Below, piece by piece: positions 2,530-54,144 of a stretch of DNA of 55,642 nucleotides. The stretch is from Gemmatimonadota bacterium (GTDB taxonomy: Bacteria > Gemmatimonadota > Gemmatimonadetes > Longimicrobiales > Gaopeijiaceae): contig DQPL01000037.1 of the NCBI GenBank assembly GCA_015664885.1, positions 1 through 55,642 of the forward strand. The letters are read 5' to 3'. The position numbers were made by a program, and so were the translations under genes. Positions within the stretch are counted from its first letter, which is position 1. Each line of letters starts with the position of its first letter. Under the pieces are notes generated by a model that worked only from the letters and a program-made list of their open reading frames with translations, did not search any database and was not told where the DNA came from.

Positions 2530-2549
2530 ACCCCCCCCTCGGAGATATT

Positions 2550-2724
2550 GGGCTTGGACGGGTGGTCCAGGTCTCCTGGCTCGAGGTCGACTGTCCGCCT
2601 TCCCAGGGATCAACCCCAGTGGCGCTCGTGGACAGACGTTCCGACTACGTCGGGCCTCTCACAGTGGCGGGGCCGCGCCGGAATCTCACCGGCTTCCGAT
2701 ATGGCCCACCCGCATGATCGATTG
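2550..2724 (-). promoter_or_regulatory. cobalamin (B12) riboswitch upstream of the btuB-type receptor
   Basis: On the minus strand the leader shows the family's hallmarks in order. First comes GAAGCCGGTGAGATTCCGGC, then the CCCCGCCACTG core, CCACTGGGG pairing with CCTGGGAAGGCGGAC, and finally the B12 box AGCCAGGAGACCTGG at 2581-2567. The start codon of the receptor lies 37 bases after the B12 box, with the ribosome-binding site at about 2533-2540. The likely mode is translational occlusion, since no T-run terminator separates the aptamer from the gene. Outer boundaries are approximate. Confidence 0.92.
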
Positions 2725-2731
2725 TGGGAAG

Positions 2732-2760
2732 AACATACGTCCGCCGGGGCCCCGAGGCAA
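2732..2760 (-). promoter_or_regulatory. candidate sigma-70-type promoter for the B12 riboswitch/receptor
   Basis: Minus-strand hexamers TTGCCT (2760-2755) and TATGTT (2737-2732) are separated by 17 bases. Transcription would start near 2724, exactly where the riboswitch begins. It lies just downstream of the stop codon of the regulator gene, so the receptor would have its own transcript. The call rests on hexamer match and spacing only. Confidence 0.4.
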
Positions 2761-36068: not shown

Positions 36069-36157
36069 AACGTTACCGCGTTGGAAGTGCCGCCGCCGAG
36101 CCCGCTCCCAAGGCGAATACCAGGGTTCTTCGCCGGCTCCGCCATAGGGAACGGAAA

Positions 36158-36255
36158 TGCCCCAGGCGACCCGCAGCGACGATCACCGCACTTACCGCTG
36201 CTACCTGCGGGGTCCTGACGGGATTCGTGAGCTTTCGCCCTGCGGACCTGGGGCA
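36158..36255 (-). ncRNA. ffs: small signal recognition particle RNA (4.5S type)
   Basis: Read on the minus strand, TGCCCCAGG (36255-36247) pairs perfectly with CCTGGGGCA (36166-36158), and CCGCAG pairs with CTGCGG inside it. This gives a closed 98-base rod. The domain IV signature GTCAGG, ACC, loop, GGT, AGCAGCGGTAAG lies at 36219-36191. In the usual form, GTCAGGTCC, GGAA loop, GGAAGCAGC. The gene lies just before dnaX, a known neighbourhood for this RNA. The loop here reads as CCGCA rather than GGAA. Promoter elements would lie in the 3' end of yraN. Confidence 0.9.
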
Positions 36256-44630: not shown

Positions 44631-45572
44631 TCAAGCGGCGAGTTCCGCCACGCGTCCACGTACGTCCAGATAGACGTCACCTATTCCAATAACCAGAGCC
44701 CCACTGAGGACCAGGGCCGGCACGAGCACGAGCCCAACCGTCACCACCAAGAGTCCGACCAGCGACACACCGCCACTTATGAAGACGACGACGGCGGCGC
44801 CGCGCAAAGCGAACAGCACGCCCATGAAGACCATTGCGTTGGCCCCCACACGGCCAAGCGGTTCGCCCGCACGAGTGACGAGCAGCAGAAGCCCCCCAAC
44901 GAACACCCACACCAGCTGGTCGTTGAATCGAAACTCCTTGAGTGGGCCCAAGCCCGGTTGATCGCTGCTCGTCAAACGAGCATACAGCCACCACACTACG
45001 CACAGTGCCGCCATGGAGGTCAAGCCCGTAATCGCCGGGAATACCTCCATCTGGGCCTCTGCCACTTCGTACATCGACAAGACGAAAGCCGGGGCGAGCG
45101 CTTCACCCTGGCGCCAGTTCACGACCTGCTCCAGGGTCTGAGCGATCGTGAACTGAACTCGATCGTTAATCGCCCAATCCACCGCCCCCCACGCTCCTGC
45201 ACGCAGCGAGATGAAGGCCGCCGTGACGGCGCCGGCACCGAGAACGGCCAGCAAAGCCCTCGTGGACAGCTTCGACATCGGCCGCGCCAACGACAACGCC
45301 ACGAACAACCCGCCGACCAGGAGCGCCCATGCTCTGTCCATGAACCAAACTCCATCGGGAACCCCCGAAGCCGTCACCAGCATCGCCACCAGGACCGCTG
45401 CGAACATGCCCAAGCCCCGAATGCCCTTCATGCCGACCAACAGCAAGAAGGGGACGGCGAGTAGCACGCTGGCGCTGACGCCCAGGGCGAAGAAGACCAC
45501 TGCGATCAGCGCGGCGGCACCACGCCATCCGCTGCCTTCGCTCGCCGTGCCCTCCGGAAGGGTTTCCAACAC
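44631..45572 (-). CDS. DUF2232-type multi-pass membrane protein
   Basis: This 313-residue protein has about eight or nine hydrophobic helices. The C-terminal LKEFRFNDQLVWVFVGGLLLLV and VGANAMVFMGVLFALRGAAVVVF segments fit the DUF2232 family. This family is commonly encoded beside ribosomal genes rpsR and rplI. The function is not established. It starts at GTG 45572, 6 bases after the fusion gene's stop. Confidence 0.8.
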   Translation of the reverse strand: MLETLPEGTASEGSGWRGAAALIAVVFFALGVSASVLLAVPFLLLVGMKGIRGLGMFAAVLVAMLVTASGVPDGVWFMDRAWALLVGGLFVALSLARPMSKLSTRALLAVLGAGAVTAAFISLRAGAWGAVDWAINDRVQFTIAQTLEQVVNWRQGEALAPAFVLSMYEVAEAQMEVFPAITGLTSMAALCVVWWLYARLTSSDQPGLGPLKEFRFNDQLVWVFVGGLLLLVTRAGEPLGRVGANAMVFMGVLFALRGAAVVVFISGGVSLVGLLVVTVGLVLVPALVLSGALVIGIGDVYLDVRGRVAELAA

Positions 45573-45578
45573 GCTCGA

Positions 45579-46241
45579 TCAGCCTTCGGCGCGCCGAGTA
45601 TACGGGACCAAGGCCAGGTATCGCGCACGCTTCACGGCACGGCCAAGCTGGCGCTGAAAACCGGCGGAGACCTTCGTGGTACGCTTCGGCAAGATCTTGC
45701 CCTGCTCGGTCAAGAAATGCGACAGCGTGCCGACGTCCTTATAGTCGAGTACGAGGATTGGCGGACCCTCCATCCGACGGCGGCGGCCCCGCGGACCCGA
45801 GAACTCCGGGGGCCCGGGTCGGTTGTGAGCCTCCTCTCCGGCCTCTCCGGCCTGCTCGGGCTCGTCTTCGTCGCGATCGTCTTCGTCCCGGTCCTCGTCT
45901 TCGCTCGCCGACCGAGGTCGGGCCTCGCCCAGAACCGAGGCACCACTGGTGAGCTCACCCTCGCTGACGACCATCAGATACCGCATCACCTCGAGGTCGA
46001 GCTTGAGCAGCCGTTCGTACTCCGGGAGAGCCTCCGGCGCGGCGGTGAAATGCGCCACGACGTAATAGCCAGCCGAAAGCTTGTTGATCGGGTAGGCGAG
46101 CTGGCGAGTTCCCCAGTGATCGATCGCGGAGACCTCGCCGCCCTTCGAAGTAACCAACTCGTGGAGTTTCTCGAGCTTGGCAGTGACGGCGTCTTCTAAG
46201 AGCGCCGGGTCGAGAATGTAGACGACCTCGTAAAGCCGCAT
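45579..46241 (-). CDS. rpsF-rpsR: fused 30S ribosomal proteins bS6 and bS18
   Basis: One open frame of 220 residues from ATG 46241, preceded by GAGGGA. Residues 1-95 are a complete bS6 ([53 protein letters not shown]). Residues 96-149 are a linker rich in Asp/Glu ([18 protein letters not shown]). Residues 150-220 are bS18 ([51 protein letters not shown]). The genes are normally separate. The only internal Met (157) has no ribosome-binding site and would cut off the basic bS18 tail. bS6 and bS18 bind each other on the 30S platform, so a covalent link is structurally plausible. The bS18 part lacks the zinc cysteines, as in many lineages. Confidence 0.88.
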
Positions 46242-46327
46242 GATTCGTTCCCTCGGTCCGTGGGTTGGAACGGGCCCCGTCATATCGACCATCATGGCTG
46301 CGGCGCCAGTGGTAGGACGGAGCGGGA

Positions 46328-46365
46328 CAACTGTGGGTGCCGGTTCCGGCACGGCGGAAAAGTTA
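46328..46365 (-). promoter_or_regulatory. candidate S6:S18-binding autoregulatory leader motif
   Basis: On the minus strand TAACT (46365-46361) can pair with AGTTG (46332-46328), enclosing a bulge with CCG (46357-46355) and the hairpin GTGCCG-GAAC-CGGCAC (46352-46337). A following ACA lies on the other side. A CCG bulge between a stem and a hairpin is the described S6:S18 complex-binding motif found in 5' leaders of rpsF operons. It lies about 87 bases before the start of the fused gene. The folding was done by eye. Confidence 0.55.
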
Positions 46366-54073: not shown

Positions 54074-54144
54074 TTGGCCCGGATGGATTCGAACCATCAC
54101 CGCCGGTGCCAAAGACCGGTGTCCTGCCATTAGACGACGGGCCA
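54074..54144 (-). tRNA. tRNA-Gln (anticodon UUG)
   Basis: The acceptor stem TGGCCCG pairs with CGGGCCA. The anticodon arm CCGGT-CTTTGGC-ACCGG gives anticodon TTG, and the T arm is GATGG-TTCGAAT-CCATC with the invariant TTCGA. The D arm contains GTCTAATGGCAGGAC. About 71 bases; the 3' CCA is not encoded. U1-A72 is a known glutamine identity element. Confidence 0.95.

Follow-up and report, generated by a model that had tools for sequence, protein, structure and literature searches.

A conserved, putatively autoregulatory RNA leader preceding the fused S6-S18 gene of a Gemmatimonadota family

The window (i.e., the whole 55,642-nucleotide stretch of DNA that was analyzed) carries on its minus strand an open reading frame (ORF) in which the ribosomal proteins S6 and S18 are joined (Table 1). 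Pfam located the S6 family (PF01250, E = 1.5e-28) and the S18 family (PF01084, E = 6.4e-20) in this one frame; the S6 domain (residues 4–91) is followed by an acidic linker and then by the S18 domain (residues 164–211). The assignment of the gene as an S6-S18 fusion, made in a preliminary description of the locus, was thus borne out. The ORF is the sole S6 and the sole S18 of the genome, which is 99% complete. Along with the domains, residues that contact RNA and the partner protein were conserved: K204, R205, and R207 of the fusion are the equivalents of K60, R61, and R63 of E. coli S18, and Y167 and K168 are those of Y23 and K24, which are found at the S6 interface (PMC4647458). An M20 peptidase gene is situated upstream, and genes for a membrane-like protein, L9, and RsfS follow downstream. 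Reading frames similar to that of the membrane-like protein, which lies between S18 and L9, were also observed after S18 in some genomes of sister families.

Table 1. Features of the fused S6-S18 locus and other RNA features of the window.
Feature	Position	Strand	Basis or remark
CDS, fused S6-S18 protein, 220 aa	45579..46241	-	ATG at 46241; Pfam, one ORF
Membrane-like protein, 313 aa, next gene of putative operon	44631..45572	-	No Pfam family
rplI, ribosomal protein L9	44156..44611	-	Pfam PF03948 and PF01281
Putative -10 hexamer TAACTT (5' stem arm of the preliminary description)	46360..46365	-	Comparison of 90 leaders
Putative 5'-terminal hairpin GUGCCG-GAAC-CGGCAC (hairpin of the preliminary description)	46337..46352	-	Sub-clade only
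Three-way junction (H1, Ha, and Hb) enclosing the Shine-Dalgarno sequence	46249..46327	-	Covariance model R1, covariation, fold
H1, 5' arm, UCCC	46324..46327	-	Pairs with 46252-46249
H1, 3' arm, GGGA within the Shine-Dalgarno GAGGGA (ATG 7 nt downstream)	46249..46252	-	Position of GGGR
Helix Ha (GCUCCGUC.../...GACGGGGC), long apical extension	46274..46323	-	Two-sided changes
Helix Hb, CCGU-n8-ACGG, fused family only	46258..46273	-	Invariant CCG; minimum-energy fold
Unpaired CC, candidate S18 contact	46255..46256	-	113/113 and 66/66 leaders
Cobalamin riboswitch	2549-2750	-	Rfam
Small SRP RNA	36156-36254	-	Rfam
tRNA	54074-54144	-	Rfam

The search for the fusion covered 59 genomes, comprising the window's own and those of relatives. 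The fusion was present in 33 of the 35 genomes belonging to the window's family (designated f1). One of the two exceptions had the fusion split over contig ends; the other featured an unrelated short S6 on a 4-kb contig of a genome that is 60% complete. S6 is a separate protein of ca. 120 residues in two sister families of the same order. A scan of GTDB genomes yielded 80 loci, all of them fused, and nearly all of the source organisms were named Gemmatimonadota, Longimicrobiales, or BD2-11. The S6-S18 fusion is limited to one family of Gemmatimonadota and is general there. Contigs labelled Gammaproteobacteria (L108, L109, L110, L112, and L169) were found to carry a Gemmatimonadota-type S6-S18 fusion and leader, and they are probably mislabelled assemblies. 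Wherever S18 was seen outside f1, it had its own ORF, which directly abuts the S6 stop codon, and was mostly of the zinc-binding type (CPxC...CARH). The fused S18 of the window has no zinc-ribbon cysteines, whereas the separate S18 proteins of related families (L205–L227) mostly carry CPxC...CxRH; the fusion therefore coincides with loss of the zinc site.

The leader of the fused gene contains a conserved element in the 5' untranslated region of rpsF, a location shared by 113/113 relatives; in the window, 7 nt separate the element from the S6 start codon. The minimum-energy fold calculated for the window sequence alone consists of exactly the helices H1, Ha, and Hb, and its energy is modestly below that of shuffled sequences (z = -1.36). 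All f1 leaders (113/113) conformed to NCCY-G-[Ha]-C-CCGY-n-NCGG-N-CC-R-N-GGGR-n3-13-ATG; as these leaders were extracted by this very pattern, part of the invariance in its columns follows from the extraction. What counts as evidence is that the 80 independently fetched loci all conform to it. GGGR was located 3–13 nt upstream of the S6 start in 33/33 leaders. The CCG and CGG of Hb were present in 113/113 fused-family leaders, and the columns of this helix are invariant except for those of the last pair, which is U-A or U-G in most leaders and only rarely C-G. The pairing in Hb is read mostly from invariant columns, and this helix is accordingly less firmly established than Ha and H1. Hb is absent from the sister families, where a short loop with an invariant closing C-G pair takes its place. 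The CC between H1 and Hb (or the short loop) is invariant and unpaired throughout the class. An alternative helix, formed by this CC and the GG of Ha, was considered and rejected; it exhibited no covariation, and the mismatch position pairs in only 5/66 sequences. Of the CCG motifs, that within Ha is paired and covaries; that downstream of Ha, which can pair in Hb, is constant in no group but the fused family. The Ha helices of f1 fell into two length classes: the stretch that begins with the element and runs through Ha comprises either ca. 21–30 nt or ca. 50–56 nt, and the window leader belongs to the longer class.

Base pairs were counted in a set of 52 sequences from three families and in a set of 66 sequences from eight families (the rows of the distant families were aligned by hand). 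The covariation score was reached by 0/500 shuffles in both sets; for the 66-sequence set, slid versions scored no higher than 0.125, compared to 0.429 observed. In the same set, the pairing of the H1 UCCC with the Shine-Dalgarno GGGA was evidenced by C-G/U-A covariation: the fourth pair was C-G in 31 sequences, U-A in 29, and U-G in 6. Eight of the nine pairs of Ha changed on both sides, and its basal pair was G-C in 56 sequences, A-U in 6, C-G in 3, and U-A in 1.

A covariance model (R1) was built from families f1–f3 only. Applied to the window's genome, it returned one clear match, which was this leader (55.4 bits, E = 8.7e-11; the next-best match had 24.1 bits). When 298 genomes of the phylum were scanned, 70 of the 73 f1 genomes were matched. 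R1 also placed the element 20–60 nt before S6 in families not used for training (f4, f5, f6, f7, and f10) with 20–39 bits, other matches there having ca. 15 bits or fewer. A match of 32.9 bits (G096 C183) was taken as a chance occurrence; it did not precede an r-protein gene and was devoid of GNCC. Because of this match, R1 matches below ca. 33 bits were considered to require evidence from position. The element, without Hb, also precedes separate S6 genes across the class. Judging from its presence in relatives whose S6 and S18 are separate, the element is older than the fusion. The leaders of related genomes had no plausible match among the Rfam families; the element is a covariation-supported RNA family absent from Rfam.

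Upstream of the element, 90 f1 leaders were compared. A TA...T hexamer (TATACT, TATATT, or TATCTT in most) was located mostly 10–18 nt upstream of the conserved block, which starts with UCCCGCUCC. In the window's sub-clade, the -10-like hexamer lies ca. 32–45 nt upstream of the conserved element, a greater distance that is accounted for by a hairpin between the two. A consensus promoter scan gave no full sigma-70 match at the putative -10 hexamer of the window, from which the mRNA would start near 46354–46352. The hairpin that follows (46337–46352) folds independently of the downstream element and is most simply viewed as a 5'-terminal mRNA hairpin. We assign roughly even chances to its being a separate element, acquired in one sub-clade, with a role in protecting the 5' end of the mRNA or in aiding the junction; this would be compatible with an autoregulatory function of the leader. 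This reading is favored by the presence, in most of the 23 sub-clade leaders, of 5–9 bp hairpins at this position (i.e., at the putative 5' end) whose stem sequences are unrelated (mean z = -1.47), and by the spacing of only ca. 10–18 nt between the -10 hexamer and H1 in most other members of the family, but a good hairpin is absent from several of the 23 (G024, L092–L094). After the sub-clade hairpin (window; L095–L107, L116, L120, L127, and L131) there is usually an ACA, which belongs to an A/C-rich spacer.

In E. coli, S6:S18 represses the translation of rpsF via a leader that holds the Shine-Dalgarno sequence in a stem; K60 and R63 of S18 contact the rRNA C pair C719 and C720, which the leader mimics, and the S18 residues contacting this pair matter for rpsF regulation (PMC4647458). 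The content of the published S6:S18 motif (Matelska 2013; Fu 2014) is taken here as it is cited in PMC4647458 and PMC10931766. The present leader resembles the rpsF leaders of E. coli and B. subtilis in its location before rpsF of an S6-S18-L9 operon, in the stem that holds the Shine-Dalgarno sequence, in the conserved C pair, and in the expected ligand, S6:S18. It differs from them in that a three-way junction with the extra helix Ha is present, there is no class-wide CCG bulge, and the ligand would be a fused chain. It probably works like the published leader. Its architecture appears to be specific to Gemmatimonadota, and any descent from the published motif would be conjectural. The Rfam model RF02893 (RpsF_leader), which recognizes the rpsF leader in its E. 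coli form, found no rpsF leader in the 59 genomes; this is weak evidence because the model looks narrow. Conversely, R1 did not match the E. coli leader. The Chlorobi S6:S18 r-leader, compared here by its published description, is likewise a lineage-restricted alternative located before rpsF with S6:S18 as its predicted ligand, and its authors report no resemblance to rRNA (PMC7247131).

No rRNA was found in the window's genome or in four relatives, and the E. coli 16S rRNA was therefore used for comparison. The S6:S18 site on the rRNA is the junction of h22, h23, and h23a. Like the leader, it is a three-way junction, and its CCG-N10-CGG-CC at positions 719–736 (E. coli) is similar to the CCG-N10-CGG-N-CC of the window leader; however, this resemblance is short and may be due to chance, and a paired CCG in Hb would be at odds with the location of C719/C720 in a loop. 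The common spacing is suggestive only.

We conclude that the element is probably the autoregulatory RNA of the S6-S18 operon, which in this organism would be read by the single-chain S6-S18 protein; the binding is a prediction. This reading is based on the constant position of the element right before S6 with the Shine-Dalgarno sequence inside H1, on the covariation, on the R1 matches in f1 and in the untrained families, on the fold of the window sequence alone, and on the conserved S18 contact residues viewed together with the rpsF precedent in E. coli (PMC4647458). Autoregulation by a single chain had been suggested in the preliminary description, and it stands as the most likely function, exerted via the conserved RNA that encloses the Shine-Dalgarno sequence and not via the structure drawn there. 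In the proposed mechanism, the mRNA would fold the 5' hairpin and then the three-way junction, in which H1 engages the Shine-Dalgarno sequence, as the covariation attests. When in excess over free 16S rRNA, the fusion would bind the junction through its S18 part (K204, R205, and R207); the likeliest contact sites are the unpaired, invariant CC, the CCG of Hb, or both. Binding would stabilize H1 and hide the Shine-Dalgarno sequence, and the fusion and the coupled downstream genes would be repressed; a single chain would thus act where the heterodimer did before. Some features speak against autoregulation. The 3' arm of H1 is constrained anyway as a Shine-Dalgarno sequence, and the sequences yielded neither a CCG bulge conserved over the class nor a cross-match with the E. 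coli leader via RF02893 or R1.

The leader might instead control translation or stability without any binding of S6-S18, i.e., as a constitutive Shine-Dalgarno hairpin or as the target of another factor. The case for binding is drawn from structure and position, and H1 is short (3–4 bp) and could merely tune initiation. We nevertheless consider this explanation unlikely: unpaired nucleotides outside the Shine-Dalgarno sequence (the CC, the C and G that precede it, and the CCG/CGG of f1) are constant in the family, as is typical of a protein-binding site, and the operon encodes S6:S18, a known autoregulator in other bacteria (PMC4647458).

Far less probable than either is a canonical S6:S18 motif at 46328–46365, which reads TAACT-TTTCCGCC-GTGCCGGAACCGGCAC-CCACAGTTG on the minus strand and in which the preliminary description had seen a TAACT/AGTTG stem, a CCG bulge, and a GC hairpin matching the published motif. 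The letters are present, but the hairpin (GUGCCG/CGGCAC) is the one part that folds by itself, and the stem lies outside the minimum-energy fold (z = -0.53). The stem can be drawn in the window genome and in its one same-genus relative (5 bp in G000 and G001); in 23 sub-clade leaders, however, the 5' arm and the ACAGTTG side formed a mean of 3.17 bp vs. 3.24 bp for shuffled sequences, and the CCG occurred in only 10/23. Moreover, if TAACTT (46365–46360) is the -10 hexamer, the 5' arm of the stem is the -10 box, and the CCG (46357–46355) precedes the expected start. A scan of the window leader with Rfam covariance models gave no match at E ≤ 10 (RF02893 finds the E. coli leader with 110 bits). 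Because the stem and CCG overlap the putative -10 region, are not conserved, and have no covariance-model match, the motif was rejected, and with it the claim of a match to the published one; this is the outcome that the preliminary description had itself named as refuting. The true element adjoins this segment, lies outside it, and has an architecture unlike that of the published motif.

A search of openly accessible papers found none on a fused S6-S18 or on a Gemmatimonadota rpsF leader. Autoregulation by S6:S18 normally requires a heterodimer of secondary rRNA binders. A tentative and rather doubtful history of the leader is that an r-leader of the whole Gemmatimonadota class arose independently of the known S6:S18 motif and gained an rRNA-like hairpin (CCG-N10-CGG-N-CC, cf. 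16S 719–736) when S6 and S18 became one regulatory chain, with loss of the zinc ribbon as well. The element would add a new RNA family, outside Rfam, in a poorly studied phylum. Set beside the sister families, which have separate proteins and the same leader RNA, the fused family would permit the contribution of the heterodimer to be tested cleanly.
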